Below, piece by piece: positions 19,643 to 34,273 of a stretch of 34,273 nucleotides of DNA. The DNA is taken from positions 1 through 34,273 of IMG/VR virus record IMGVR_UViG_3300032288_004951. One strand, given 5' to 3'. The position numbers and the translations under genes are program-made. The notes below the pieces were generated by a model, which ran no database searches, was not told the origin of the DNA, and saw nothing but the letters and a program-made list of their open reading frames with translations. Source of the stretch: a virus. Each line of letters begins with the position of its first letter. Positions within the stretch are counted from its first letter, which is position 1.

Positions 19643-20833
19643 ATGGGCTATTCAAATAAAGATTCAAAAATCCTTTGGGAATCTTACTTATTAAATGAAG
19701 TAAATTGGGAAAAAGATTTCCCCGATGTACAAAAATCTTGCTATACCCCAGAAGAAGTAGCTAATGCTCTTAATGCAGAATTAGAAAGATTAAAAGCAAA
19801 AGGAGATGATAGAGAAAAACGTGATGTCCAATTCCCTATCATAACTAAAAAAACTATAGAAAAAAGTATCAATAAAGAAACTAATAAAATTGATATAGAA
19901 GCTTTTAAAAAACAAATAATGGCATTCCCAGAAGATATATTCAGTGTAGGCAAAAAATCAGAAAATACTGTAGATGATAATATCGCTACTGTTAATACTG
20001 GTATACCAGCACTAAGAGCAGTTCTATACGATGAAAAAACTAATAAATTCTTCGTAATAAATACTTGTCCAGGTGCAGGAAATTGTATTCTTAATTGTTA
20101 TGCCAGAGAAGGATTCTACATAATGAATGATGGTAAAAATCTTAAATTAATAAGAAGATTACAATTAATGATGAATCATCCAGAAAAATATGTCGCAATA
20201 GCATATGGAGAATTATTAGGCTTCGCTGGTAAAAATAATGCCCTAGATAAAAAACTAATGATACGCTGGAATGATGCTGGTGACTTCTTTAGTGAGAAAT
20301 ATATACAAATCGCTATCGATGTAACTAAAAAATTACAAGATAAAGGTATGGACGTAGAATCCTATGCCTATACAAAAACTGCCGATATGTATAAAAAAGG
20401 ACTAGAAGCTGGTATGGTAATGAATTTTAGTACTGGTGCCTCACATTCAGAATTCCTTAAAATGGATATGAAAAATACTAAAGTATCAGTAGTCTATCCA
20501 GAAAATTTATTCAAAAAAACTATATTCAAAACAAAAGACAATGGACGACATTACGATAAACCTATAGGAGAAAAACCAATCTTCAAATCAGAACAATCTA
20601 AACAACAACTTAAACAAAATATCGTAGATTATTATAATAATATCGAATCCTCACAACTCAATTGGATAAAAGGTATACTAACTCTAGAGAATCTAAAATA
20701 TACAGACGAATTGCAACAATTACCATACAATGATAATAAAGTAAAATATCATGCTATAGTACTACCAGACGGTGATTCAGATAGACCATCCCAAAGAAAA
20801 GATGTTGGCATTACTGTTCTACTAGAACACTAA
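19643..20833 (+). CDS. GP88-like Cys-cluster protein with capsid-targeting-like N-terminus
   Basis: 396 residues. TCPGAGNCILNCYAREG (141-157) gives C142-x5-C148-x3-C152, and RWNDAGDFFSEKYIQIAIDV with a later YAYTKT follows, the order seen in the GP88 family of phage proteins (TCPGA..C...CYA...GDF), which probably bind an iron-sulfur cluster; the reaction is unknown. The N-terminus KDSKILWESYLLNEV has LWE|S and LNE|V sites like its neighbours. The stop overlaps the convergent LRR gene by 4 bp. Packaging in the virion is inference. Confidence 0.65.
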   Translation: MGYSNKDSKILWESYLLNEVNWEKDFPDVQKSCYTPEEVANALNAELERLKAKGDDREKRDVQFPIITKKTIEKSINKETNKIDIEAFKKQIMAFPEDIFSVGKKSENTVDDNIATVNTGIPALRAVLYDEKTNKFFVINTCPGAGNCILNCYAREGFYIMNDGKNLKLIRRLQLMMNHPEKYVAIAYGELLGFAGKNNALDKKLMIRWNDAGDFFSEKYIQIAIDVTKKLQDKGMDVESYAYTKTADMYKKGLEAGMVMNFSTGASHSEFLKMDMKNTKVSVVYPENLFKKTIFKTKDNGRHYDKPIGEKPIFKSEQSKQQLKQNIVDYYNNIESSQLNWIKGILTLENLKYTDELQQLPYNDNKVKYHAIVLPDGDSDRPSQRKDVGITVLLEH

Positions 20834-21564
20834 ATCATAATATACTTAACATTAGGTAACATTTGTTTTAACTGTTGTTCAGTATACTTTTTACTAATAG
20901 GTGTATTACGTAAATATAAATTACCATTAACTTTTAATCCTTTAGGTAAACTAGTAATAGGTGTATAACTTAAATATAAACCACCACCAACTGTTAATCC
21001 CTCTGGTAAACTAGTAATACGTGTATTTTCTAAATATAAATCACCACCAACTGTTAATCCTTCTGGTAAACTAGCAATAGGTGTATTACTTAAATATAAA
21101 CCACCACCTACTTTTAATCCTTTAGGTAAACTAGTAATAGGTGTATCATATAAATCTAAATCACCACCAACTGTTAATCCTTCTGGTAAACTAGTAATAC
21201 GTGTATTACTTAAATATAAACCACCACCAATTTTTAATCCTTCTGGTAAACTAGTAATAGGTGTATCACTTAAATATAAACCACCACCAACTGTTAATCC
21301 CTCTGGTAAACTAGTAATACGTGTATTTGTTAAATATAAATTACCACCAACTGTTAATCCTTCTGGTAAACTAGTAATAGGTGTATTACGTAAATCTAAA
21401 GTACCCTTACTACCATTCTTAATATACTCTACTATTTGTTTCTGTAATGCTATTTTGTAGTTTCTCTGACGTTCTTCTTTATTCCTACGTGGTATAAGTA
21501 TAGAACTACTCTCATATATACTACAATATGCTTCCTCTAATAATATCTTATCCCTCTTATTCAT
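20830..21564 (-). CDS. Leucine-rich-repeat protein with capsid-targeting-like N-terminus
   Basis: 244 residues. N-terminus MNKRDKILLEEAYCSIYESS parallels that of the 18015 gene and contains LLE|E and IYE|S sites. Then eight exact 20-residue repeats, consensus TPITSLPEGLTVGGDLYLEN, with alternating TPIT/TRIT, capped by KKYTEQQLKQMLPNVK. The same repeats and cap occur in the four LRR genes at 32.4-34.3 kb, but those have a different N-terminus. Start at 21564 is preferred: an upstream in-frame ATG (21579) overlaps the preceding gene, and Met21564 follows its stop by 1 bp. Binding partner unknown. Confidence 0.85.
   Translation of the reverse strand: MNKRDKILLEEAYCSIYESSSILIPRRNKEERQRNYKIALQKQIVEYIKNGSKGTLDLRNTPITSLPEGLTVGGNLYLTNTRITSLPEGLTVGGGLYLSDTPITSLPEGLKIGGGLYLSNTRITSLPEGLTVGGDLDLYDTPITSLPKGLKVGGGLYLSNTPIASLPEGLTVGGDLYLENTRITSLPEGLTVGGGLYLSYTPITSLPKGLKVNGNLYLRNTPISKKYTEQQLKQMLPNVKYIMI
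20905..21384. repeat. Eight tandem 60-bp repeats encoding LRR units
   Basis: Exactly 60-bp period, nearly identical at DNA level (the run GGTAAACTAGTAATA recurs in most units). High identity suggests recent expansion or gene conversion. Confidence 0.9.
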
Positions 21565-21565
21565 A

Positions 21566-22321
21566 TTAAGAAACTCCAATAATGTTTAAATAATTTGTTA
21601 GCTTTTCTCCAGTGAATTGTTTATCCAAACCATCATAAGCATCCATAGATGGTAACTTTTTTTGTGATGCTTTATATGCTGTCTCCTCATCCAATACAGC
21701 AATCGCACTTACAAAATACTGAGCACCATAACCAGAAGCTTCTAGTTTTTTTTGTAATTCTTCCGAACGTACTTTAATATAATAAAAAGTTACATTATGC
21801 TTATAATAGTAATCGTTAAAATGATTAGATGCTTTATATGTAGTACACCATGCAGAATCCTTACCGCCACCTGCACAATCCCTAAAAGCAAAATGACTAA
21901 GACCCAATTTTCTAGAAGCTTCATGAGTATGTGGAGACATTATCAATAATTCATTGTCATCCCTAATTACCTCATAATCACTCTCAAGATCCTTTACAGA
22001 TACACCTTCCCCAGTATCATTCAAATGATTAACTTCTGCTTTCAATTCAGAAAAGTTATTGTAAGCATATATATCTTTGTTTTTTGTCTTATTCTTATTT
22101 AAAAAACTATTCCACTCTTCAATAGTATTCCTCAAATCATCCATATCACTTACTAACTTATTAGCCCATTGCTTACACATCCATCCTACATACTTCTTCT
22201 GTGGTGTTGGATCAATCTTAATAATAGATTCTAACTCATCTTGAGTTATCTTTCCCTTAGATACATATAACTTACCTTCTTTAACACTTTCAGAAAGTAA
22301 TGACAAATAAAACGAAACCAT
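21566..22321 (-). CDS. Phage protein with FRDCAGGGKDSAWCTT motif
   Basis: 251 residues. The C-terminal half has SPHTHEASRKLGLSHFAF, then CAGGGKDSAWCTTYKASNHF, NDYYYKHNVTFYYIKV. This 'EAS..lG....WCTa...nhF..Yy....lyyi' arrangement recurs in phage proteins and is often next to LRR modules, as here, but its activity is unknown to me. The N-terminus SFYLSLLSESVKEG includes an LSE|S site like the neighbouring putative internal proteins. Leftward late box 7 nt before the ATG; the LRR gene follows 1 bp after its stop, so the two are one operon. Confidence 0.65.
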   Translation of the reverse strand: MVSFYLSLLSESVKEGKLYVSKGKITQDELESIIKIDPTPQKKYVGWMCKQWANKLVSDMDDLRNTIEEWNSFLNKNKTKNKDIYAYNNFSELKAEVNHLNDTGEGVSVKDLESDYEVIRDDNELLIMSPHTHEASRKLGLSHFAFRDCAGGGKDSAWCTTYKASNHFNDYYYKHNVTFYYIKVRSEELQKKLEASGYGAQYFVSAIAVLDEETAYKASQKKLPSMDAYDGLDKQFTGEKLTNYLNIIGVS

Positions 22322-22328
22322 AATATAC

Positions 22329-22334
22329 TATTTA
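22329..22334 (-). promoter_or_regulatory. Late promoter box, minus strand
   Basis: TAAATA read leftward, 7 nt before the ATG at 22321. It is the last late box in the window; everything to the right uses sigma70-like promoters. Confidence 0.55.
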
Positions 22335-22600
22335 GTAAATTTTAAGTGTTATATAAAAATCGCCATTAAGGAAATTCTTGGATTTTTTATAAAAAAAAAT
22401 TTTTGGGCATGCCTACCTCCCCCCCCTAAAAAACTTTTTTTCTACTTGACATTCTAGAATACGACGACCTAGTAAAAAGTGTTTTTGTATACAAGAGTTT
22501 GTAGTAATAGGGGTTTGGTTAAAAGTGGGGGAGTGTATCATAAAAGGAAAGGTATGCAAATAAAAAGTGAGTGATAATGGTAGAAGTGTTATGGTATAAA
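22335..22600. other. Noncoding junction between late and early regions
   Basis: About 270 bp with no convincing gene. It holds homopolymer runs (T, A and C7 near 22424), a rightward promoter candidate (22446-22475) and then a terminator. It separates late-promoter genes on the left from sigma70-promoter genes on the right. Confidence 0.6.
22446..22475 (+). promoter_or_regulatory. Rightward sigma70-like promoter candidate
   Basis: TTGACA, 18 bp, TAGTAA within CCTAGTAA, partly like the repeated early element. It points at the terminator at 22598-22630 and at no plus-strand gene, which would yield an RNA of roughly 150 nt. Confidence 0.45.
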
Positions 22601-22630
22601 AAAACCCCCCACCTATTAGGTGAGGGGTTG
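22598..22630 (-). terminator. Intrinsic terminator for leftward transcripts
   Basis: Stem CCCCTCACCT/AGGTGGGGGG (one G:T-type mismatch), followed leftward by T7. Ends the 23095-22644 gene block; may also stop rightward RNA. Confidence 0.8.
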
Positions 22631-22643
22631 TATGTTTATTAGG

Positions 22644-22898
22644 TTAGGAGATAAAGACAACAGTGCAACTATTAGATGGGACTAGTTTAATCATGTCCCC
22701 GTAATCCTCTTTTTTACAACGAACCCCAGTTAAACCTAGTTCCTTCTTGACTAATCTGACCGCTTGTTTAGAGGTGAAGGCATTAACCTTTCCACGTTTA
22801 ACCCAAGAGTAGTTCGATTCACCTTGGAAGGTATCAGTGTATTCATAGTTATAGGTATTTAGGTTTTTTGGTTCAGCTATCATAGGGTTTTTATTCAT
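22644..22898 (-). CDS. Hypothetical protein, 84 aa
   Basis: Not recognised. Contains TDTFQGESNYSWVKRGKVNA, then FTSKQAVRLVKKELGLTGVR, with a C-terminal hydrophobic strand (CTVVFIS). The central part resembles the compact alpha/beta architecture of small phage early proteins. Second gene of a leftward block preceded by the repeated early promoter element (minus copy at 23349-23395); a terminator follows the stop. Confidence 0.65.
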   Translation of the reverse strand: MNKNPMIAEPKNLNTYNYEYTDTFQGESNYSWVKRGKVNAFTSKQAVRLVKKELGLTGVRCKKEDYGDMIKLVPSNSCTVVFIS

Positions 22899-22909
22899 AG
22901 GGGTTTTTA

Positions 22910-23095
22910 TTATTTGAGTAATATATTTGCGAACTCTAATCCGAAGAGTAGAGCAAACATGGTGACGACGCCTGATGCGACCATCAGGGAGAGGAGGAAC
23001 ACTAGGTCTTCGAGCCGGAACATGGAATGATTAAAACAGATAAAAGGTAGGAAGTCCAATACAAAAACCATGCCAACCAAAGAAAAAGGATTCAT
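22910..23095 (-). CDS. Small two-segment membrane protein, 61 aa
   Basis: Hydrophobic at about 5-22 (SLVGMVFVLDFLPFICF) and 32-58 (LVFLLSLMVASGVVTMFALL), suggesting two transmembrane helices with a short polar loop. No family recognised. It is the first gene downstream of the leftward early promoter, so it is likely made early and inserted in the host inner membrane. Confidence 0.6.
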   Translation of the reverse strand: MNPFSLVGMVFVLDFLPFICFNHSMFRLEDLVFLLSLMVASGVVTMFALLFGLEFANILLK

Positions 23096-23133
23096 GCCAA
23101 TGTTTGAAAAAAGAATGATCTGATAAAAAAGGA

Positions 23134-23181
23134 TTGCAATGGGATAGGTTTTGGACTAGCCTAGTAGGCGGGGGATGGTTT
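23134..23181 (+). promoter_or_regulatory. Repeated early promoter element, copy 1
   Basis: -35 TTGCAA, 17 bp, then the repeat TAGCCTAGTAGGC-GGGGGATGGTTT at 23157-23181 supplying the -10. Confidence 0.8.
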
Positions 23182-23265
23182 GGGTGTTTTTATTATGGAT
23201 AGGCGTTTATGATGTCGATGCGTTTTTGGTATAAAAGTGGCATGGTTATTGTTGAAACTTTTTTA

Positions 23266-23313
23266 TTGCATACGGGATTGAAAGACTGTAGCCTAGTAGG
23301 CGGGGGATGGTTT
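23266..23313 (+). promoter_or_regulatory. Repeated early promoter element, copy 2
   Basis: -35 TTGCAT, 17 bp, repeat at 23289-23313. Faces the minus copy at 23349-23395 head to head. Confidence 0.8.
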
Positions 23314-23348
23314 AGGGTAGTTCGTATTTTTGTAAACTAAAAAGGTTG

Positions 23349-23395
23349 AACCATCCCCCGCCTACCAGGCTAATGATAAAAGGGGGGGTTGTCAA
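23349..23395 (-). promoter_or_regulatory. Repeated early promoter element, minus copy
   Basis: The only leftward copy: TTGACA (23390-23395), 17 bp, TAGCCT, with one change in the repeat (CCTGG for CCTAG) that breaks the dyad. It drives the 23095-22644 genes and can pair with the rightward copy 2 as a large inverted repeat. Confidence 0.8.
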
Positions 23396-23411
23396 TAAAA
23401 AAAATAGAACG

Positions 23412-23454
23412 AAAAAAAGAGTTGACCCCGACACACTTTTGATGTATCGGGGTC
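23412..23454 (-). terminator. Intrinsic terminator after the DUF932 gene
   Basis: Stem GACCCCGA/TCGGGGTC with a weakly paired loop, then a leftward run CTCTTTTTTTC. Confidence 0.85.
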
Positions 23455-23466
23455 GAACTTTCCAGC

Positions 23467-24498
23467 CTAGTTCAGAAGGTAGTTTAATGCCTTCTCTTTT
23501 AGTGTCGCACCCACCCCAAGAAGGGAACGTGTAAACCGCTGTTCCGCTTTAACTTGCGAAGCATCGCGGTCTGAACGCGAAAGGGAAGTAGCAGTCACTC
23601 GTCCGTTCTGGTGGTGGTCTACCCATTCTGTAAGACCGTTCAACAAATCGTAACGTGTTGAACCGTAGTTACCTGCACCTCGTTCGAACAGGGACAGAAC
23701 TTCGTTCCGCTTGTTCTCAACTCGCGTTGCAATGTCACCGTGTTCGTCTTCCGTGGAAGGGAACATCTCAGCCATAAAACCCTTAACGTATTCACCATCA
23801 ACCTTTTGCGTGAATAGCTGATTCATAGCTTCTTCGTACACCTTGAAGTAACCTTCCGTTAAACCCATAACACGTTGAGCCTCAGTCACTCTCGAAAGAG
23901 CGTTCTTGGTATGACGCACTGCGAACTTGTTCTTAAAGTTCCCCAGTGCAGCACTTAACGTGTTCTGGCATACAACTCGGATTGGAGTCCAAAGGCCTGT
24001 CACTGCGGCACTTCCGTCGTGAGAGGTGAAGAACAGCAACCGCTTTTCGGTTTCTTCCTTCCGCTTACCCTTCCCGATAATCATGTTGCCCAGTAACTTC
24101 GCTTGCGCGAACACTTTACGTCCGCCATCCAACGCCCCAGCCGTATCCCAGATTGCGGCTTTTTCTCCCCCCGCTTCCGGTGCAGTAACAGCGTTGAAGA
24201 AGGCAAAGCACTCTCTGTTCTGGAGAGTTTGATAACGGTCGGACATAATCGCCAACGCATTGTCTGTATCCGCCCGAACAATCGCGGTTTTCCCATCGAT
24301 TATTTTCGCATTGCCATCGTTTCCGATAATAAAGCATTCGCGGGGAACCACTTCCCAACCAAGCTTTGCGTGTTCGACGGCTTCTTCCCACGTTGCGAGA
24401 CCTTCGATGACGGTACCCAACCCATGCCAAGCAGGGGTGTTGGAACCGCAGAAAAACTCGACTTCGCCTTCTCCGTTTGTGCTAAGATTATGAGCCAT
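23467..24498 (-). CDS. DUF932-family protein
   Basis: 343 residues, matching the DUF932 'phage/plasmid-like' family: VEFFCGSNTPAWHGLGTVIE, TWEEAVEHAKLGWEVVPREC, ALAIMSDRYQTLQNRECFAF, FTSHDGSAAVTGLWTPIRVV then CQNTLSAAL, the usual order. Function unresolved; members occur on plasmids and phages and have been linked to DNA metabolism. GC content is far above its neighbours (one 60-base line, 24121-24180, has 39 G+C against 19 in 25081-25140), so it was probably acquired recently. Its 5' leader folds into a branched structure that includes the start codon. Confidence 0.92.
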   Translation of the reverse strand: MAHNLSTNGEGEVEFFCGSNTPAWHGLGTVIEGLATWEEAVEHAKLGWEVVPRECFIIGNDGNAKIIDGKTAIVRADTDNALAIMSDRYQTLQNRECFAFFNAVTAPEAGGEKAAIWDTAGALDGGRKVFAQAKLLGNMIIGKGKRKEETEKRLLFFTSHDGSAAVTGLWTPIRVVCQNTLSAALGNFKNKFAVRHTKNALSRVTEAQRVMGLTEGYFKVYEEAMNQLFTQKVDGEYVKGFMAEMFPSTEDEHGDIATRVENKRNEVLSLFERGAGNYGSTRYDLLNGLTEWVDHHQNGRVTATSLSRSDRDASQVKAEQRFTRSLLGVGATLKEKALNYLLN

Positions 24499-24597
24499 AG
24501 TGTGTTACTCTGGGGAGGGTTCCCTAAGTTCCTCAACAAGAGGAACAAGAGTCGTCTCCCCGCTAATGCGGTAGGGTTCTCCCCAGAGAGCACACTA
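24498..24597 (-). promoter_or_regulatory. Branched structured leader including the DUF932 start codon
   Basis: Paired segments, given in plus coordinates: 24591-24597 with 24498-24504 (TAGTGTG/CACACTA, the last including the A of AUG), 24579-24588 with 24508-24517 (10 bp), 24572-24576 with 24522-24526, and two inner hairpins, CCGC-4-GCGG (24560-24571) and a 7-bp GTTCCTC/GAGGAAC (24528-24546). A multi-branch RNA of this kind could control translation. No known riboswitch class was recognised. Confidence 0.6.
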
Positions 24598-24617
24598 GGC
24601 TGGAAATAAACTGTCAA
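24589..24617 (-). promoter_or_regulatory. Possible promoter of the DUF932 gene
   Basis: TTGACA (24612-24617), 17 bp, TGTGCT. The -35 is perfect but the -10 is poor. Transcription would start just at the left edge of the structured leader. Confidence 0.4.
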
Positions 24618-24794
24618 AGATCGAATCAGCCTCTCACCTCTTGCTTGGTTTCGTCTGAACCTCGCACCCCCCGCTGACATCAACAACCATAACACAACCA
24701 ATCCGCACCACAAGGGTTTTTTTCAGATTATTGAAACTTTTTTACGGAGGGTTTTCATGCCAACCATACCAACTTTTTTCAAAAATAAAAAAGC
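24600..24794. other. Right flank of the GC-rich island, no gene
   Basis: Leftward leader/promoter DNA still GC-rich up to about 24715, then abruptly AT-rich. No convincing reading frame. The composition change marks the likely right border of the acquired DUF932 segment. Confidence 0.5.
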
Positions 24795-24842
24795 TTGACA
24801 ACCCCCATCCCCCCCACTAGCCTAGTAGGCGGGGGATGGTCT
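24795..24842 (+). promoter_or_regulatory. Repeated early promoter element, copy 3
   Basis: -35 TTGACA, 17 bp, repeat at 24818-24842 (ending GGTCT). An A-rich stretch upstream may act as an UP element. Confidence 0.85.
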
Positions 24843-24874
24843 GGGGTAATACTTTTATGGGTCAAAAGTTTTTA

Positions 24875-24922
24875 TTGACACCAATCAAAAATCTCATTAG
24901 CCTAGTAGGCGGGGGATGGTCT
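24875..24922 (+). promoter_or_regulatory. Repeated early promoter element, copy 4
   Basis: -35 TTGACA, 17 bp, repeat at 24898-24922. Only 80 bp after copy 3; followed at 25008-25035 by a terminator hairpin. Confidence 0.85.
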
Positions 24923-24942
24923 GTGTGTTTCTATCATTATTA

Positions 24943-25004
24943 TAAGTTTATGATGTGAATGCATTTTTGGTAGAAATGTAGCATGGTTATTATTAAAAGT
25001 TTTT
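24943..25004. repeat. Duplicated segment also present at 23208-23269
   Basis: Downstream of copy 4, TTTATGATGT...TTTTTGGTA...GCATGGTTATT.TT matches, with scattered changes, the DNA between copies 1 and 2. The promoter cassette was therefore copied with its transcribed region. Stops interrupt all plus-strand frames here, so it is not conserved coding sequence. Confidence 0.65.
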
Positions 25005-25007
25005 AAT

Positions 25008-25035
25008 AAAAAAGAGGGGAGAATAATCTCCCCTC
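25008..25035 (-). terminator. Intrinsic terminator
   Basis: Perfect 8-bp stem GAGGGGAG/CTCCCCTC, followed leftward by T6. Ends the 25721-25045 block; the rightward T-run is weaker but could stop RNA from copy 4 after about 120 nt. Confidence 0.85.
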
Positions 25036-25044
25036 CCACTTTTA

Positions 25045-25392
25045 TTAAACTGGATAAACAACCATTCCTGATTCTAACAATAGCCATTCAATAATAGCAT
25101 CATCAGCAAATGTAAGATTAGTAGTCTTAAAGAAGACATCATTGATAGTTACCCTTACTGGTATCTCATTTGTGGTAAACATAGATGCCATCATTTGTAA
25201 AGATTTAATACAATCAATAGCTGATTGGTATCCATACAAGGTTGGAGTTGTATGTAGACCAGTAAAAACTGTATGATAATCATTAAAGTCTCTAGCCTCT
25301 TCATAAGAGTTATAATCATCAGGGTTATAAAACTCTAAAGAAACAGATTCTATTAAAGACGTTTTAACTAGACTTGCTATTTTTTCATCCAT
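25045..25392 (-). CDS. Hypothetical protein, 115 aa
   Basis: Not recognised. Start at ATG25392 (MDEKIASLVKTSLIESVSLE); a TTG 21 nt upstream would overlap the previous gene. Contains an acidic DDYNSYEEARDFNDYHTVF stretch and alternating strands and helices near the end (IPVRVTINDVFFKTTN, IIEWLLLESGMVV). Third gene of a leftward block with 13 bp spacing, terminated at 25008-25035. Confidence 0.65.
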   Translation of the reverse strand: MDEKIASLVKTSLIESVSLEFYNPDDYNSYEEARDFNDYHTVFTGLHTTPTLYGYQSAIDCIKSLQMMASMFTTNEIPVRVTINDVFFKTTNLTFADDAIIEWLLLESGMVVYPV

Positions 25393-25405
25393 AGTATTAA
25401 AAAGA

Positions 25406-25615
25406 TTAGCCAAGATTAACTAGAGCACCTAATGGGAGTTTCTTAAACTTCTTAATGTCTTTTTCATCATCTAATACATCAAGAATAGCTTCTGTTGAAA
25501 CAATAGCATAATCTGTATCTCCCCAAGTGAACTTATTCTGAAGATTCATGTAAGAATCTTCGGAGATGTTGAAATCACTAAGGTGAAAGAATGTAACTGA
25601 ATCTTCGTCGTACAT
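25406..25615 (-). CDS. Hypothetical protein, 69 aa
   Basis: Small acidic protein, not recognised: SVTFFHLSDFNISEDSYMNL, then NKFTWGDTDYAIVSTEAILD and a Lys-rich turn (KDIKKFKKLPLGALVNL). Co-directional with and just upstream of the 115-residue gene. No obvious ribosome-binding site. Confidence 0.6.
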   Translation of the reverse strand: MYDEDSVTFFHLSDFNISEDSYMNLQNKFTWGDTDYAIVSTEAILDVLDDEKDIKKFKKLPLGALVNLG

Positions 25616-25640
25616 ACGTTTTATTTGGTTTGGATTTAAC

Positions 25641-25721
25641 TTACAAGGAAACGAACCAGAGGATGAATAGGATTGGTGATACTACTACTGCCAGACCGAT
25701 GATTGCGAGGATGTTTCTCAT
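25641..25721 (-). CDS. Single-span membrane micropeptide, 26 aa
   Basis: MRNILAIIGLAVVVSPILFI followed by LWFVSL: one Arg/Asn-flanked hydrophobic segment and nothing else. It is first in the block 25721-25045, in the position where an early gene is expected. One of several similar micropeptides on this strand; too short to prove by sequence alone. Confidence 0.45.
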   Translation of the reverse strand: MRNILAIIGLAVVVSPILFILWFVSL

Positions 25722-25827
25722 ACGCCACTGAACATACCTGAAGGAAAAAGAATGGTCAACAGGTATTTTGAAAAAAAAATGTATGCCAACTCCTTCATGT
25801 TTACGAAAATAAAATAAACTTTTTTTC

Positions 25828-25875
25828 TTGTCAAAGTTGCGAGTTTCTAATAGCCTAGTAGGCGGGGGATGGTTT
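25828..25875 (+). promoter_or_regulatory. Repeated early promoter element, copy 5
   Basis: -35 TTGTCA, 17 bp, repeat at 25851-25875; A/T tracts directly upstream. Confidence 0.85.
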
Positions 25876-25949
25876 AGCTTTTTTTATAGAGGTGACAAGA
25901 TTATTACGAAATCGTGTTTTTATTCAGATGATTGGCATGAAAATACTTC

Positions 25950-25997
25950 TTTACAAAAGAGTAGAAAGTTAATAGCCTAGTAGGCGGGGGATGGTTT
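25950..25997 (+). promoter_or_regulatory. Repeated early promoter element, copy 6
   Basis: -35 TTTACA, 17 bp, repeat at 25973-25997. The bidirectional terminator at 26027-26060 lies so close that an RNA of only about 70 nt is expected. Confidence 0.85.
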
Positions 25998-26060
25998 ATG
26001 TTGTTTTATGTATTGTAAAGAAATAGAAAAACCCCTCCTATGAGAGAGGGGTTTTGTTTT
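25986..26060 (+). ncRNA. Candidate small RNA, about 70 nt
   Basis: Region from the predicted start of copy 6 to the end of a terminator with tails on both sides. It encodes at most a 10-codon frame. Prediction rests only on promoter plus terminator spacing. Confidence 0.4.
26027..26060. terminator. Bidirectional intrinsic terminator
   Basis: Stem CCCCTC/GAGGGG with A5 on the left and TTTTGTTTT on the right; works for the leftward 26756-26072 genes and for rightward RNA from copy 6. Confidence 0.85.
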
Positions 26061-28867: not shown

Positions 28868-28933
28868 TCAAATAAAACAAACAGGATGTACCGAACAACT
28901 CTTCTTCAACTCTTCTACTTGTTCTTCCGTCAT
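28868..28933 (-). CDS. Possible micropeptide, 21 aa
   Basis: MTEEQVEELKKSCSVHPVCF then I. The ATG overlaps the TGA of the 52-residue gene (ATGA), and the frame ends 2 bp before the next ATG. The coupling pattern is the only evidence. Confidence 0.3.
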   Translation of the reverse strand: MTEEQVEELKKSCSVHPVCFI

Positions 28934-29088
28934 ACCTTTAAAACAACTACAATGTATTCCCCACACTCACTCTTATATGTCGTAGCAATATCACTTTCAC
29001 TCTTCTCACACCCTTCAATAGCTTCCTTAAAAGAAGACATACAAATCTTCTTAGCCTTACCACTCACTACATCTACTACAAATACCAT
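28930..29088 (-). CDS. Small hypothetical protein, 52 aa
   Basis: MVFVVDVVSGKAKKICMSSF, then KEAIEGCEKSESDIATTYKS and ECGEYIVVVLKV: a plausible compact alpha/beta protein with strand-helix-strand alternation. Not recognised. Overlaps the next frame through ATGA and belongs to the block 29252-27997. Confidence 0.5.
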   Translation of the reverse strand: MVFVVDVVSGKAKKICMSSFKEAIEGCEKSESDIATTYKSECGEYIVVVLKV

Positions 29089-29108
29089 ATTCTTTAAACC
29101 TACTTCGA

Positions 29109-29252
29109 TTACCGTCTCAACAGGAACCGCCCCGCTGATGAATCAAACATACCATATCCCATCACCACCACAACACCTTTTTTCAAAAATCTTTCACTTT
29201 CTTTTACCAATACTCTTAAAACTTTTTCCTTTACATCATACCAAAATCTCAT
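29109..29252 (-). CDS. Possible small basic protein, 47 aa
   Basis: MRFWYDVKEKVLRVLVKESE then RFLKKGVVVVMGYGMFDSSA and GRFLLRR. Open frame directly beyond rightward promoter copy 7, whose spacer it overlaps. There is no independent support, and the region is strongly strand-biased, so chance is possible. Confidence 0.3.
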   Translation of the reverse strand: MRFWYDVKEKVLRVLVKESERFLKKGVVVVMGYGMFDSSAGRFLLRR

Positions 29253-29277
29253 TAGCCTAGTAGGCGGGGGATGGTCT
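29230..29277 (+). promoter_or_regulatory. Repeated early promoter element, copy 7
   Basis: -35 TTTACA, 17 bp, repeat at 29253-29277 (ending GGTCT). Confidence 0.85.
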
Positions 29278-29350
29278 AACTTGGTTTACCATTAATGCTA
29301 TTACCATGCCAACTACCTTTTATTCCCATCATGGCACGAAACTTTCCTAC

Positions 29351-29398
29351 TTTACATAACCCCAATATCACCGTAGCCTAGTAGGCGGGGGATGGTTT
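29351..29398 (+). promoter_or_regulatory. Repeated early promoter element, copy 8
   Basis: -35 TTTACA, 17 bp, repeat at 29374-29398; 121 bp after copy 7. Confidence 0.85.
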
Positions 29399-29459
29399 AT
29401 TCTATTCTTTTTATACCCATCCTTATCCACTTTTATCCATGTCAATAAAAATATTACCA

Positions 29460-29507
29460 TTGACATTACCCAAAAATACCTTTAGCCTAGTAGGCGGGGG
29501 ATGGTTT
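29460..29507 (+). promoter_or_regulatory. Repeated early promoter element, copy 9
   Basis: -35 TTGACA, 17 bp, repeat at 29483-29507; 109 bp after copy 8. Reads into the noncoding candidate origin. Confidence 0.85.
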
Positions 29508-29617
29508 ACCCCTTTTTATCAAAATACTTTTTATTAAAATAATACTTCACTTTTAATAATCCTATTATACCCTATACCACTTTTACTCATTTCCATTATT
29601 CCTTTTACCAAAATAAT

Positions 29618-29650
29618 AAAAAAGGATCACCTAGGGAGAAAATGCTTTTA
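29618..29650 (-). repeat. 35-bp CCTAGG repeat, inverted copy
   Basis: Reads leftward as TTTTCTCCCTAGGTGATCC-T6; slightly diverged from the three direct copies. Confidence 0.75.
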
Positions 29651-29654
29651 TACC

Positions 29655-29712
29655 TTTTAATAAAAAAATAATCCCAATCAGATAAAAATACTATCCAATC
29701 GGGATTATCTAT
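29655..29712 (-). terminator. Inverted repeat, possible leftward terminator
   Basis: ATAATCCC/GGGATTAT arms around a 25-nt centre, nested between two 35-bp repeats; leftward it is followed by T7. Confidence 0.5.
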
Positions 29713-29716
29713 ACTA

Positions 29717-29753
29717 TTAAAAACCTTTTTTCCCCTAGGTGATCCTTTTTTTT
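29717..29753 (+). repeat. 35-bp CCTAGG repeat, copy 1
   Basis: Core AACCTTTTTTCCCCTAGGTG followed by ATCC-T8. Pairs with the inverted copy as a large stem. Confidence 0.85.
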
Positions 29754-29759
29754 ATTTAC

Positions 29760-29795
29760 TTAAAAACCTTTTTTCCCCTAGGTGTTCCTTTTATT
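29760..29795 (+). repeat. 35-bp CCTAGG repeat, copy 2
   Basis: Same core as copy 1 with one change (GTTCC for GATCC); starts 43 bp after copy 1. Confidence 0.85.
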
Positions 29796-29828
29796 TTATA
29801 CCATTATTACCTTTTTATCCTTATTTTA

Positions 29829-29863
29829 TTAAAAACCTTTTTTCCCCTAGGTGATCCTTTTTT
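29829..29863 (+). repeat. 35-bp CCTAGG repeat, copy 3
   Basis: Same core as copy 1; starts 69 bp after copy 2. Confidence 0.85.
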
Positions 29864-29951
29864 ACTTATCCCTAATAATAAGTAACCATACTATTATCAA
29901 TATCACTATTATTATCATTTTGTGACACTTTTTCCACTTTTCGACATACTT

Positions 29952-30005
29952 TACTCTGTAGATGGCTTCACCATAAGGTAGAGTAGTATTTGTTATTTTT
30001 TTTTT
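29952..30005 (+). terminator. Possible rightward terminator
   Basis: Imperfect hairpin TACTCT...ATGG-CTTCA-CCAT...AGAGTA, then a run of ten T after about 10 nt. It could end RNAs from promoter copies 7-9. Confidence 0.4.
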
Positions 30006-30008
30006 CTA

Positions 30009-30119
30009 CTATTTCTTAGTTATCTTAAAGTAATATACTATACTTAACATTCCTAATATTATTGATATTAATATTCCATTAATTATTCCATATTCTTTTA
30101 TATTATTTTCTTCTTCCAT
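30009..30119 (-). CDS. Single-span membrane micropeptide, 36 aa
   Basis: MEEENNIKEYGIINGILISI then ILGMLSIVYYFKITKK: acidic start, one hydrophobic helix, basic end, a convincing type of small membrane protein. Not recognised. The 14-bp inverted repeat lies just upstream of its ATG. Confidence 0.55.
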   Translation of the reverse strand: MEEENNIKEYGIINGILISIILGMLSIVYYFKITKK

Positions 30120-30129
30120 ATTCTTATAT

Positions 30130-30172
30130 ATCTATACCTATATTAGTATATTTTTTTTATATAGGTATAGAT
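30130..30172. repeat. Perfect 14-bp inverted repeat
   Basis: ATCTATACCTATAT and ATATAGGTATAGAT separated by 15 bp. Lies between two micropeptide genes at the point where GC skew reverses; could be an operator, a terminator stem or part of the origin. Confidence 0.7.
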
Positions 30173-30206
30173 TATTTTTAGTATTTTTACTCTGTTAGAA
30201 TGTTAC

Positions 30207-30308
30207 CTAGGTAATAAGAGTTTTAATATGGTTAGCTAGGGTAGCACCTATAGATATTCCTAATACGATAGAGATGGTGTATAGGAATACTTTTAGTATA
30301 TTGAGCAT
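30207..30308 (-). CDS. Single-span membrane micropeptide, 33 aa
   Basis: MLNILKVFLYTISIVLGISI then GATLANHIKTLIT: one hydrophobic helix with basic residues near both ends. Its ATG is 3 nt after the stop of the upstream 67-residue gene, as expected for a coupled gene. Confidence 0.55.
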   Translation of the reverse strand: MLNILKVFLYTISIVLGISIGATLANHIKTLIT

Positions 30309-30311
30309 ATA

Positions 30312-30515
30312 TTAGTTTAGGAAGTTTTCTACGTATTCTGAGACTAGTGCTTCTGTATATTTGTCATTACAAGTGAGAACGTATTTAGAGTCGAGGAATG
30401 TTCTTTTGACTTCTACATTGGTATTATAAATCATTTGGATATTTTTGATGATATTATATTCATCCATATCTGAGAGGTTGACATCATTATCGATATATAG
30501 TTTTACTGTATTCAT
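30312..30515 (-). CDS. Hypothetical protein, 67 aa
   Basis: Not recognised: MNTVKLYIDNDVNLSDMDEY, then NIIKNIQMIYNTNVEVKRTF and an acidic end (KYTEALVSEYVENFLN), a likely ferredoxin-like alpha/beta arrangement. Leftward early region; followed immediately by a membrane micropeptide gene. Confidence 0.6.
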   Translation of the reverse strand: MNTVKLYIDNDVNLSDMDEYNIIKNIQMIYNTNVEVKRTFLDSKYVLTCNDKYTEALVSEYVENFLN

Positions 30516-30566
30516 GAGTTTATTATTTTTTTGAGTTTATGATATAAGTTTGGTTATAATATATGA

Positions 30567-30821
30567 TTATTCTTCTACATTGAGTACGGAATCAGATTCT
30601 TCATTAATGATGGAGATGAACATTTGGACTTCTTTTAGTTCTTGTTCTGTGAGGTTGAACATTTTTGGGGATTTATTGATATCGATTGATGCTACTTCGT
30701 TTGTTTCTTTGTGTACACCTAGGAAACCTTCTTGGAGACCGTATTGTAATTTTTTAGCAAACTTCATGGATTCTTTATAGATTATTTCATCCATGTTATA
30801 TCCTTTGTTATTTTCTTCCAT
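30567..30821 (-). CDS. Hypothetical protein, 84 aa
   Basis: Not recognised: begins MEENNKGYNMDEIIYKESMK, has FAKKLQYGLQEGFLGVHKET and an acidic helix NLTEQELKEVQMFISIINEE. An internal ATG at residue 9 is a possible alternative start. Its coding strand is C-rich, as for all genes right of 30.2 kb. Confidence 0.6.
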   Translation of the reverse strand: MEENNKGYNMDEIIYKESMKFAKKLQYGLQEGFLGVHKETNEVASIDINKSPKMFNLTEQELKEVQMFISIINEESDSVLNVEE

Positions 30822-30992
30822 TGTGTTTTTGTTTTGGGGTTGTTGTTACTGACTGGGATGAGTATTGCAGGATTTTGTGGGGATGCAACATTTTTCTTAC
30901 AATATTATTTAATTCAAATTGGTATTACTCTTTGAATAGTTTTTTTAGAATAAGTACTAGGGGGAAGATGAGGAAGTATGATAGTACTAGTA

Positions 30993-31547
30993 TTAAGTTA
31001 ATAGTGTTTTGATTTGGTTATTTGATTTGAATTTGGAATGTTTTGGTTTATATTGGGTAGTTTTGTATTGAGCGGAGTAGGTACCATTTAGGTTTAGGGA
31101 TACGATGGCATGGATATCATTTTCTAGGATGATGGGGTTTTTATTTTGGATGATGATGGTATCTAGGATGAGAATACAATTAATTATTTCTGATATGAGG
31201 TCAATGATTGTGGCATCTTCTTTGTATTCGATTACGTAATTTTTTTCTTGTATAGGGCCATTACAATTGAATCCTGTGTACATACCAGTTATGTGGAATG
31301 TTTTTCCATGTATGATTAATTGTTCTGATTTGATATAAGATGCGGTATAGTTTGTACCGTCGGAGAAGTTTATGGTAAGTTTGGTGAAGTCTTCTGTTTG
31401 TTGTGTATCATATCTATCGAATTCTGCTTCTAGGGATAGGGGTATTAGGGGTTCGAAAGCGGTTGTGAATTTATCTAGGTTTAGTTCTAGGAGTTCTTTT
31501 TCTCTGTTATAGAACACTTGTTTATCTATTTTTGTTAATCTAGACAT
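30993..31547 (-). CDS. Hypothetical protein, 184 aa
   Basis: Starts MSRLTKIDKQVFYNREKELL; contains FTKLTINFSDGTNYTASYIK and KNYVIEYKEDATIIDLISEI, then a hydrophobic INCILILDTIIIQ, and a basic C-terminus. Not recognised. I chose Met31547 because its ATG overlaps the end of a 25-residue membrane peptide frame, in the coupled style of this region; an in-frame ATG at 31622 would add 25 residues and is the alternative. Confidence 0.55.
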   Translation of the reverse strand: MSRLTKIDKQVFYNREKELLELNLDKFTTAFEPLIPLSLEAEFDRYDTQQTEDFTKLTINFSDGTNYTASYIKSEQLIIHGKTFHITGMYTGFNCNGPIQEKNYVIEYKEDATIIDLISEIINCILILDTIIIQNKNPIILENDIHAIVSLNLNGTYSAQYKTTQYKPKHSKFKSNNQIKTLLT

Positions 31548-31612
31548 AGCATAAGGGTGAGCATGATTGCTACGAATATAATTAGAATAAGAACTATATG
31601 GGAGTCTTTCAT
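31535..31612 (-). CDS. Single-span membrane micropeptide, 25 aa
   Basis: MKDSHIVLILIIFVAIMLTL then MLCLD. One hydrophobic helix. It overlaps the preceding frame by ATGA and the following gene by 13 bp; if real, it competes with the longer start of the 30993 gene. Confidence 0.4.
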   Translation of the reverse strand: MKDSHIVLILIIFVAIMLTLMLCLD

Positions 31613-31671
31613 TTTTTACCAAAGATGATGAGGCAGCATATGATAACGGTTAGGCAGATTGGTTCGACCAT
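31609..31671 (-). CDS. Possible membrane micropeptide, 20 aa
   Basis: MVEPICLTVIICCLIIFGKK. Hydrophobic with a basic end; linked to the next frame by an ATGA overlap. Very short. Confidence 0.35.
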   Translation of the reverse strand: MVEPICLTVIICCLIIFGKK

Positions 31672-31685
31672 AGTATTTAATTTGT

Positions 31686-31892
31686 TTAATCTTGATTACG
31701 TAGTTCTTCTAGTTCGTTATCGAAATGTTGTAGTAATTTGAAATGCGTTTTCATATGGTCGAGGAGGTAGAATAGGTCTTCGAAGGGATAATCCATTAGG
31801 TTATCGTATTGGTAATGTCTATGGATATAGCTTAATTCTTCATAGGCATTTTTGAGTGCAGTGATTTGGTTTTGGTTTAGGTTTTCTTCCAT
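31686..31892 (-). CDS. Hypothetical protein, 68 aa
   Basis: Predicted all-helical: MEENLNQNQITALKNAYEEL, SYIHRHYQYDNLMDYPFEDL and HFKLLQHFDNELEELRNQD. Not recognised. The start is supported by a good leftward promoter at 31951-31979, leaving a leader of about 50 nt; the following genes may form its operon. Confidence 0.65.
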   Translation of the reverse strand: MEENLNQNQITALKNAYEELSYIHRHYQYDNLMDYPFEDLFYLLDHMKTHFKLLQHFDNELEELRNQD

Positions 31893-31950
31893 AATAGTGA
31901 TGAGTTTATTTTATATGAACGGATCTATTCTAGGGGTGTTTATGGGGGAT

Positions 31951-31979
31951 AGGATAGTGGATTATATTGTGTTTGTCAA
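31951..31979 (-). promoter_or_regulatory. Leftward sigma70-like promoter
   Basis: TTGACA (31974-31979), 17 bp, TATCCT (31951-31956). It shares the spacing and -10 type of the repeated element but lacks its GC-rich tail and dyad, so it is probably not under the same control. Confidence 0.7.
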
Positions 31980-32052
31980 TGGGGTTTTTTCTTTTTTTGG
32001 GGGTATTTTTTTTATTTTAAACGGTACTTTTTTTTATTTTTTGGGGGGATTT

Positions 32053-32370
32053 TCATCGTTTATTCATTAGAAATAAACCTAGGCAGATTAGTAGGACACC
32101 TGCGAATTGGATGGGGGACATTTTTTCATTTAAAAAATGCATGATGAGGACACCTGTTAGGGCACCGATTGAGTTGTACCATGCTGAGAAGTTTTTTAGG
32201 GGCATTTCTCCATATTTTGTTGCATATGAAAAAAGGAGCATGAAAAGGATACTTGGGAGGAAAGTGAAGTATTGGTTCCAATTATGGTAACGTACTAGGA
32301 AAGAGATATAGGTACTGAAGGCGCAAATTGAGCCGAAGGTTAATAGGATTAGTTTATCTTTTAGAATCAT
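32053..32370 (-). CDS. Small EamA/SMR-like transporter protein
   Basis: 105 residues with four likely membrane helices: LILLTFGSICAFSTYISFLV, FTFLPSILFMLLFSYAT, WYNSIGALTGVLIMHFLNEK and PIQFAGVLLICLGLFLM. The last two match the ending of small multidrug-resistance/EamA half-transporters ('G....f.E.l....GvlLI..Gl'). SMR proteins act as dimers, so this could export a solute or remodel the membrane; its substrate cannot be told. The ATG overlaps the stop of the LRR gene upstream (ATGA). Confidence 0.65.
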   Translation of the reverse strand: MILKDKLILLTFGSICAFSTYISFLVRYHNWNQYFTFLPSILFMLLFSYATKYGEMPLKNFSAWYNSIGALTGVLIMHFLNEKMSPIQFAGVLLICLGLFLMNKR

Positions 32371-32807
32371 AAATATAAATAAGAAGCCATATGTTTAAGC
32401 ATTTTTCTTAATTCTAATGTGGTATGATTATTTGTAATAGGAGTATTTTTTAAGGCTAACCATCCACCGATTTTTAAGTTTTTTGGTAAAGTAGTAATGA
32501 GTGTATTGCATAAATTTATATTATCAAAAACTTTTAAGTCTTCTGGTAAACTAGTAATGGGTGTATTATTTAAATATAAACTTTGACCCACTACTAAGTT
32601 TTTTGGTAAAGTAGTAATGGGTGTATAATTTAAATCTAAAAAACCACCAACTTTTAATCCATCTGGAAGATAAGATACTTTAGTATAATCTAAATCTAAA
32701 TTACCTTTCATATTACCATTAATATACTTTAATAGTTTATGATAACCTATACAACCAGTTTTTATGTATTCAAAAGTAATACGTTTAGTAGCTTCTTCGA
32801 GGTTCAT
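32367..32807 (-). CDS. LRR cassette protein A (146 aa)
   Basis: N-terminal module MNLEEATKRITFEYIKTG and YHKLLKYINGNMKGNLDLD, then about five 20-residue repeats of type TPITTLPKNLVVGQSLYLNN, and a degenerate cap (TLELRKMLKHMASYLYL). The N-terminus is shared by all four cassettes here, while the repeats differ. It has its own promoter (32814-32841) placing +1 at the ATG. Divergence of the cap suggests this copy is drifting. Function unknown; LRRs usually bind proteins. Confidence 0.85.
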   Translation of the reverse strand: MNLEEATKRITFEYIKTGCIGYHKLLKYINGNMKGNLDLDYTKVSYLPDGLKVGGFLDLNYTPITTLPKNLVVGQSLYLNNTPITSLPEDLKVFDNINLCNTLITTLPKNLKIGGWLALKNTPITNNHTTLELRKMLKHMASYLYL

Positions 32808-32813
32808 GTGATG

Positions 32814-32841
32814 ATGGTAGGGGAATGTATGGTTATGTCAA
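32814..32841 (-). promoter_or_regulatory. Promoter of LRR cassette A, overlapping the upstream stop codon
   Basis: TTGACA (32836-32841), 16 bp, TACCAT. The TGA ending cassette B lies inside the -35 box; the -10 ends 6 nt before ATG32807. Confidence 0.7.
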
Positions 32842-33338
32842 ATATAAATTTCACCTTTTATATTTGGTAGCATTTGTTTTAATTGTTTTACAGTATACAT
32901 TTTACTAATAGGAGTATAACGTAAATATAAATCATAACCAACATTTAAGTCTTTTGGTATAGTAGTAATGAGTGTATGAGCTAAGTATAAATGATGACTA
33001 ACTTTTAATTTTTCTGGTAAAGTGGTAATGGGTGAAAAGGCTAAATTTAAAGCACCACCAACTTTTAATCCTTTTGGTAGACTAGTAATGAGTGTATTAC
33101 TTAAATCTAAGTAAGCACCAACTTTTAATCCTTCTGGTAAAGAAGTAATGGGTGTATTTTTTAAATTTAAATTACCACCAACTTTTAATCCTATTGGTAA
33201 AGAAGATACTTTAGTATTACCTAAATCCAAATTACCTTTCATATCACTATTAATATAGTTCATTAATGTTTGATAGAATTCATAACCAGTTTTTATGTAT
33301 TCTAGAGTAATACGTTTAGTTTCTTCTGGTAGGTTCAT
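32838..33338 (-). CDS. LRR cassette protein B (166 aa)
   Basis: Same plan as A: MNLPEETKRITLEYIKTGYE, then six repeats such as TPITSLPEGLKVGAYLDLSN, and the full cap SKMYTVKQLKQMLPNIKGEI. Spaced about 30 bp from A, from which it differs most in the repeats. The cap matches the LRR protein at 20830-21564. Own promoter at 33345-33372. Confidence 0.87.
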   Translation of the reverse strand: MNLPEETKRITLEYIKTGYEFYQTLMNYINSDMKGNLDLGNTKVSSLPIGLKVGGNLNLKNTPITSLPEGLKVGAYLDLSNTLITSLPKGLKVGGALNLAFSPITTLPEKLKVSHHLYLAHTLITTIPKDLNVGYDLYLRYTPISKMYTVKQLKQMLPNIKGEIYI

Positions 33339-33344
33339 GTGATG

Positions 33345-33372
33345 ATGGTAGGGGAATGTATGGTTATGTCAA
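33345..33372 (-). promoter_or_regulatory. Promoter of LRR cassette B, overlapping the upstream stop codon
   Basis: TTGACA (33367-33372), 16 bp, TACCAT, identical to the cassette A promoter from the -35 to the ATG; the TGA of cassette C is within the -35. Confidence 0.7.
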
Positions 33373-33878
33373 GTAAAAATATTACCTTCTACATTTGGGA
33401 ACAATGGTTTTAATTCATATGATGTCGAATAAAAGTATTTTTTACCTATTGGACTATTACGTAAGAATACATGGCTACCTACTTTTATGAATTTTGATAA
33501 ACTAGTAATTTTAGAGCTTGTTAGATATAAACTACGACCCACTTCTAAATCTTCTGGTAGAGTATTGATATTAGTATGACACAAATATAAATCACCACCA
33601 ACTTTTAAGTTTTCTGGTAAACTGGTAATAGGAGTATTGGATAATTCAAAGGAATCTTTGACAAATAATTCTTTTGGAATAGTATTGACATTTGTTCCGA
33701 ACATATTTAAATCGCCACCAACTTTTAAACCTTCTGGTAGAAAAGATACTTTAGTATTATATAAATCTAAATCACCTTTCATATCACCACTAATATACTT
33801 TAGTAATGTTTGATAGCCTTCACAACCAGTTTTTAGATATTCGAAAATAATACGTTTAGTAGCTTCTTGAAGGTTCAT
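33369..33878 (-). CDS. LRR cassette protein C (169 aa)
   Basis: MNLQEATKRIIFEYLKTGCE, about six repeats (for example TPITSLPENLKVGGDLYLCH, with some altered units such as TNVNTIPKELFVKDSFELSN), then a variant cap (SYELKPLFPNVEGNIFT). The most sequence-divergent of the set, so cassettes are not simply recent copies. Own promoter at 33885-33913. Confidence 0.87.
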   Translation of the reverse strand: MNLQEATKRIIFEYLKTGCEGYQTLLKYISGDMKGDLDLYNTKVSFLPEGLKVGGDLNMFGTNVNTIPKELFVKDSFELSNTPITSLPENLKVGGDLYLCHTNINTLPEDLEVGRSLYLTSSKITSLSKFIKVGSHVFLRNSPIGKKYFYSTSYELKPLFPNVEGNIFT

Positions 33879-33884
33879 GATGGG

Positions 33885-33913
33885 ATAATAGGGGAACGTA
33901 TGATGGGTGTCAA
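33885..33913 (-). promoter_or_regulatory. Promoter of LRR cassette C, overlapping the upstream stop codon
   Basis: TTGACA (33908-33913), 17 bp, TATTAT, the best -10 of the set; -10 ends 6 nt before ATG33878. The TGA of cassette D is in the -35. Confidence 0.8.
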
Positions 33914-34273
33914 ATCAAAATTTCACCTTTTACATTTGGTAGCATTTGTCTTAATTCTTGTATAGTATGCTTTTTACTAATAGGTGTGTTACTTAAATCT
34001 AACCAACCACCAACTTTTAAGTTTTCTGGTAAACTAGTAATATCTGTATTTTCTAAATCTAAATCATCACCAACTTTTAATCCTTTTGGTAAAGTAGTAA
34101 TAGGTGTATTACCTAAATCTATCCAACCACCAACTGTTAATCCTTCTGGAAGATATGATACTTTAGTAGCATATAACCATAAATTACCTTTCATATTACC
34201 ATTAATATACTTTAGTAATGTTTGATAGCCTTTACAGCCAGTTTTTAGATATTCGAAAGTAATACGTTTAGTA
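33910..34273 (-). CDS. LRR cassette protein D (5' partial, runs off the window)
   Basis: The frame is open to the right edge, where translation reads TKRITFEYLKTGCKGYQTLL, the shared N-terminal module; about 8 residues including the start are missing. Four repeats follow (TPITTLPKGLKVGDDLDLEN type) and the cap SKKHTIQELRQMLPNVKGEI. An internal ATG at 34194 should not be taken as the start, since homology extends beyond it. The array probably continues to the right. Confidence 0.87.
   Translation of the reverse strand, partial: TKRITFEYLKTGCKGYQTLLKYINGNMKGNLWLYATKVSYLPEGLTVGGWIDLGNTPITTLPKGLKVGDDLDLENTDITSLPENLKVGGWLDLSNTPISKKHTIQELRQMLPNVKGEILI

Follow-up and report, generated by a model that had tools for sequence, protein, structure and literature searches.

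Why does the strand composition of a phage genome reverse at an AT-rich site when the genes on both sides of that site lie on the same strand? The locus that raises this question belongs to IMG/VR record IMGVR_UViG_3300032288_004951, analysed here over its full length of 34,273 bases (hereafter the window), which is a fragment of a divergent, uncultured T4-like phage. The phage's major capsid protein matches phrog_138; among the best-ranked matches, identity to P-SSM2-type cyanophage capsids is at most about 32%, while closer kin (63–74% identity) come from uncultured viral contigs. Genes are mostly on the plus strand from 1 to 20.8 kb and on the minus strand from 20.8 to 34.2 kb. The main T4-like relatives tested have almost no counterpart of 20–34 kb, a part of the record that, judged by its sequence, behaves like a hypervariable region. 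Searches for phage DNA similar to 28.9–30.3 kb, for relatives of a 209-aa protein encoded on the right flank, and for Rfam RNAs and tRNAs found no match.

Cumulative GC skew over the 34-kb record, itself a fragment, reaches its minimum at exactly 30,138; between 30,117 and about 30,209 it departs from this minimum by no more than 4 units, and we take that interval as the switch point. The original prediction had expected a minimum near 30.1 kb, and the base counts that it gave are exact (12 C and no G at 29521–29580; 18 G and one C at 31021–31080). When contrast is measured over 1.5 kb on either side of a site, the value at 30,138 is 390, the largest in the window, against 234 for the runner-up and a maximum of 149 in 300 shuffles. 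Once the average effects of gene strand and codon position are subtracted, this value stands at 409, and the next site outside the window, in 1.4 Mb of relatives plus T4, reaches 267. Three loci in a 2.2-Mb T4-like set rival or exceed the window's contrast (599, 529 and 438/397). One of these is a TRF-confirmed, long run of tandem Thr/Pro-type repeats; the remaining two share the same extreme low-complexity composition around a matching gene, and no other non-repetitive site in the 2.2 Mb of related T4-like DNA equals the reversal at 30,138.

The two flanks are each extreme, adjoin one another and are opposite in sign. On the left (28900–30137), C strongly exceeds G on the plus strand, at a level within the top 0.05% of the relatives' 1.2-kb windows. 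On the right (30150–32360), where genes are on the minus strand, coding and non-coding DNA alike have a strong plus-strand excess of G over C, and no 2.1-kb comparison window was equally extreme. At its strongest the skew extends over about 1.2 kb to the left and 2.2 kb to the right, while the G bias as a whole spans 30.14–33.9 kb and the C bias 15–30 kb, the latter broken by a G+C-rich stretch at 22.3–26 kb. That stretch (22300–26000, up to about 51% G+C) is an island with a DUF932 gene, deviant tetranucleotides (correlation of about 0.68 with the left half) and seven copies of the dispersed element described below; from its sequence it looks acquired. AT skew in non-coding DNA showed no reversal, with T exceeding A on both sides of the switch.

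Could coding strand account for the flip? Genes on both sides of the reversal are on the minus strand, and coding-strand bias, discounted as a cause in the original prediction, is ruled out because the shift extends to intergenic DNA and the coefficient fitted for gene strand is about zero. This coefficient comes from a model of G versus C on the plus strand at codon position 3 whose terms were gene strand and freely placed breakpoints. The optimum put one breakpoint at about 14.9 kb and the other between the genes at 30,064 and 30,257, with log-odds of G over C of −0.04, −0.73 and +1.34 in the three segments (segment likelihood ratio 193; maximum of 200 gene permutations, 103). Third-position skew tracks location, and the C bias of 15–30 kb persists where genes switch strand at 20.8 kb. 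Sites under weak constraint show the largest shift, namely codon position 3 and intergenic DNA (+0.74 and +0.61, respectively, in the right block), and positions 1 and 2 a smaller one. The window thus holds a switch in strand asymmetry that is independent of gene direction, as expected of an origin. Simple inversion of a block is likewise ruled out, because genes and skew would then flip jointly.

An internal control for this effect of location is provided by a family of LRR-like genes (32367–34272 and 20830–21579), all on one strand. Third positions number 21 G to 2 C at 21 kb and 21 G to 44 C in three copies at 32–34 kb (P about 1e-6); a fourth copy, at the record's end, departs from the trend with 8 G to 5 C. 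Identical leaders (acattcccctaccatcatcac ahead of the ATG), with TTGACA-type boxes upstream, precede the two copies that start at 32807 and 33338.

The switch coincides with the DNA whose helix is the least stable in the record. By nearest-neighbour stability, the ~200 bp at 29987–30189 rank first among 150-, 200- and 300-bp windows and take ranks 1 and 2 among 100-bp windows, which makes them a candidate DNA unwinding element; the skew minimum falls inside this segment, so that an easily unwound AT-rich segment is present at the switch, again as expected of an origin. At the minimum itself lies a perfect 14-bp inverted repeat with a 15-nt loop (30130–30172; arms 30130–30143 and 30159–30172) that is absent from shuffles. 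Also borne out are the four 35-bp repeats of the original prediction, which measure about 32–35 bp and comprise three direct copies and an inverted one. The direct copies of this repeat (R hereafter) are on the plus strand at 29720–29751 (core TTTCCCCTAGGTGATCC), 29763–29794 and 29832–29864, and the inverted copy, 88% complementary to the first and third of these, is on the minus strand at 29617–29649. As single-stranded DNA, the inverted copy and its neighbour fold far more strongly than shuffles (z −6.7). A strong minus-strand, terminator-like hairpin (29666–29710; 20 pairs plus a T-run) separates the inverted copy from the direct ones and is predicted to end leftward transcripts of the gene cluster at 34–30 kb. 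A 12-bp palindrome, TTACCTAGGTAA, at 30203–30214 has ACCTAGG in common with the R repeats, and this motif occurs 10 times in the window where 2.4 are expected. Searched as a 16-mer in viral contigs, the R repeat gave scattered single matches only.

The block around the switch is AT-rich, as had been claimed, but it is not mostly gene-free, because two small ORFs flank the skew minimum, one of 36 aa at 30009–30119 and one of 33 aa at 30207–30308, both membrane-protein-like as judged from sequence. Two further short ORFs lie to the left of the switch, at 28930–29088 and 29109–29252, and all four are minus-strand ORFs. The latter two would fuse into a protein of about 100 aa if the frame shifted by −1 at a GGGG run; they may be parts of a single frameshifted gene, or the split may stem from a sequencing error.

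Three promoters firing into the block had also been predicted, and three copies of a promoter-like element are present on the plus strand, at 29230–29275 (TTTACA-17-TAGCCTAGTAGGCGGGGGATGGT), 29351–29396 and 29460–29505 (TTGACA), the last aimed at the repeats and the AT-rich segment. They are not specific to the site, however, being three of ten copies, located between 23134 and 29505, of one dispersed element that consists of a −35-like TT(G/T)ACA or similar, 17 bp, and the 23-bp core TAGCCTAGTAGGCGGGGGATGGT. No copy of the core is expected by chance, and the ten observed have one mismatch summed over all of them. A promoter-like reading on the plus strand is supported by the −35-like hexamer, which is kept 17 bases upstream while the spacer varies. 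Each cluster of the element occupies the space that separates a minus-strand gene's terminator from the start of the following gene, and nine of the ten copies are oriented against neighbouring genes. Because seven copies (23–26 kb) are away from the candidate site, the element is weak evidence for an origin.

Neither the 23-mer of the element, which was not found in viral contigs, nor a 16-mer, whose one identical match (in three contigs) is apparently coincidental, led to relatives, and the Bacteroidetes-type promoter motif TANNTTTG was not enriched. The closest relative by NrdA/NrdB, G014, has no copy of the element. Its contig (L082) carries a different dispersed element, CCATCTGAAACCC, at 25356, 25692, 26724, 26973 and 27288, about 40–50 nt upstream of small minus-strand ORFs, and this is possibly an analogous early signal.

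The best single explanation for 29.2–30.3 kb is that it is the replication origin of this phage, a reading that we put forward tentatively, with slightly less than even confidence, and whose main rival is a mosaic junction. It is favoured because the strand asymmetry depends on location and has its centre in the record's least stable DNA, as an origin would leave it, and because an inverted repeat stands at the switch, with four R repeats and rightward promoter-like elements 0.3–0.9 kb away. Moreover, a promoter with an AT-rich element, or an early promoter with direct repeats, is a known T4 layout (PMC3016281). Under this reading, transcripts from the rightward promoter-like elements, the last at 29460–29505, would run through the R repeats, whose probable role is to bind protein; the AT-rich DNA of 29,987–30,189 would melt, and forks would depart from it in both directions. 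Strand-unequal mutation around the start of the forks could then, over the long term, have enriched the plus strand in C on the left and in G on the right.

Several results weaken the origin reading. A symmetric replication signature should flip AT skew, which here keeps its sign, a joint reversal being supportive of an origin and not strictly defining. The strongest GC skew is only local, the promoter-like elements recur at 23–26 kb, and no local reversal of this order is seen at the origins annotated in T4 (A, E, F and G): contrasts at the four annotated positions, 16,763, 79,355, 115,321 and 152,947, are 43, −1, 43 and 5, respectively, none an outlier comparable to the window, and T4 thus lends no support as a positive calibration for skew. 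Nor do skew minima mark unstable DNA as a general rule, since those of related contigs coincide with it no more than random points do. We also count against an origin that a search for relatives carrying the 29.2–30.3 kb region found none and that no initiator protein was recognised in the record, which is a fragment.

The candidate's parts nonetheless invite comparison with known systems. In T4, oriF and oriG pair a MotA middle promoter with an AT-rich unwinding element downstream of it, in a minimal origin of about 100 bp, and oriE has an early promoter with direct repeats; oriE, oriF and oriG, but not oriA and oriC, are close to broad shifts in composition where transcription switches as well (PMC3016281). 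The candidate, also in a T4-like phage, resembles oriF and oriG in having a promoter-like element upstream of an A+T-rich, easily unwound segment. It differs from them in that about 490 bp and a hairpin separate the nearest such element from that segment, in that its promoter-like elements are known from sequence, whereas theirs are MotA middle promoters, and in its local skew switch, which they lack. The original prediction of an origin reminiscent of the RNA-primed ones of T4 is partly supported, in that the parts (promoter-like elements, repeats and AT-rich segment) are present, but the likeness to T4 is weaker, given the gap and the missing reversal at T4 origins. Like oriE, the better comparison within T4, the candidate combines clustered direct repeats with a promoter of early type, here a putative one, although the repeats of oriE are 12 nt and evenly spaced and those of the window 32–35 nt, spaced by 43 and 69 bp and with one copy inverted. 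The ori of phage lambda combines iterons, an AT-rich segment and transcriptional activation, a general layout to which the window's repeat array, AT-rich segment and predicted transcription across them correspond; here, in contrast, the repeats are intergenic and no O-like initiator gene was recognised. By this analogy, the parts appear closer to oriE or lambda ori than to oriF and oriG. To our knowledge, the origins of T4-like phages have no sequence motif in common and are experimentally known from very few phages.

A related use of skew comes from the T4-like Acinetobacter phage ZZ1, whose origin was predicted from its cumulative GC skew minimum (PMC4177764). That origin is likewise a prediction only, and the ZZ1 minimum lies near, not inside, its gene-free region. 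By a citing paper's account, the PeSL cassettes of T4-like phages consist of an early promoter and a stem-loop; the window's elements resemble them as promoter-like repeats beside terminator hairpins, in several copies and in a hypervariable region, and appear to differ in being antisense to neighbouring genes and in their nearly invariant 23-bp core.

The main rival holds that two acquired blocks from different sources, opposite in strand composition, meet in an AT-rich intergenic stretch within a hypervariable region, so that the skew flip would mark their junction in place of an origin. We regard such a mosaic boundary as possible though on the doubtful side. It would suit the near lack of counterparts of 20–34 kb in the main relatives, the patchy composition of the record, with its deviant island at 22.3–26 kb, and the failure of the relatives' skew minima to track unstable DNA. 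The genes at 30.3–32.4 kb, moreover, have a raised third-position G+C (0.31–0.42, about twice the usual), which keeps acquired DNA in contention. Yet this would require two blocks, each very rare, independent of one another and opposite in sign, to adjoin by coincidence, the C bias of 15–30 kb survives the gene-strand change at 20.8 kb, and the tetranucleotides of 30.1–32.4 kb correlate at 0.87–0.90 with most of the remaining record.

Transcription offers another source of asymmetry, if strong divergent transcription from about 30.1 kb, of leftward genes and rightward antisense RNA, biased mutation on either side. The promoter-like elements at 29.2–29.5 kb do point rightward, and enrichment of G and T on the plus strand in that direction fits exposure of this strand, but we consider the explanation quite unlikely: there is no convincing rightward gene or promoter at the switch itself, promoter-like matches in the region are fewer than expected by chance, and gene strand has no effect on the third-position skew of this genome. 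More improbable still is an assembly artefact joining two phage genomes at about 30.1 kb. The contig is metagenomic and a single copy, and the junction would lie in low-complexity AT-rich sequence; against this, LRR genes of one family (52–63% identity) occur on both sides, though such genes are common in related phages, and the skew trend on the left starts 15 kb earlier.

Returning to the origin reading, a site recognisable by composition, melting and repeats in an uncultured group would yield a concrete prediction for read-depth mapping. If true, it would also suggest that some T4-like phages replicate from a fixed, dominant origin. That this phage has one dominant origin of iterons plus AT-rich DNA, and a strand bias that lasts and resembles that of a replichore (about 15 kb to the left), in place of the several origins of T4, seems to us unlikely.

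Two observations concern the record at large. Gene starts generally have few recognisable Shine-Dalgarno sequences, with A/T-rich stretches preceding most start codons, and the host may therefore not be a typical bacterium that uses them. Finally, the NrdA gene (9517–12264) has an insert at residues about 634–783, relatives aligning up to 633 and from 784; with Cys as its first residue and His-Asn-Ser as its last, the insert appears from its sequence to be an intein.
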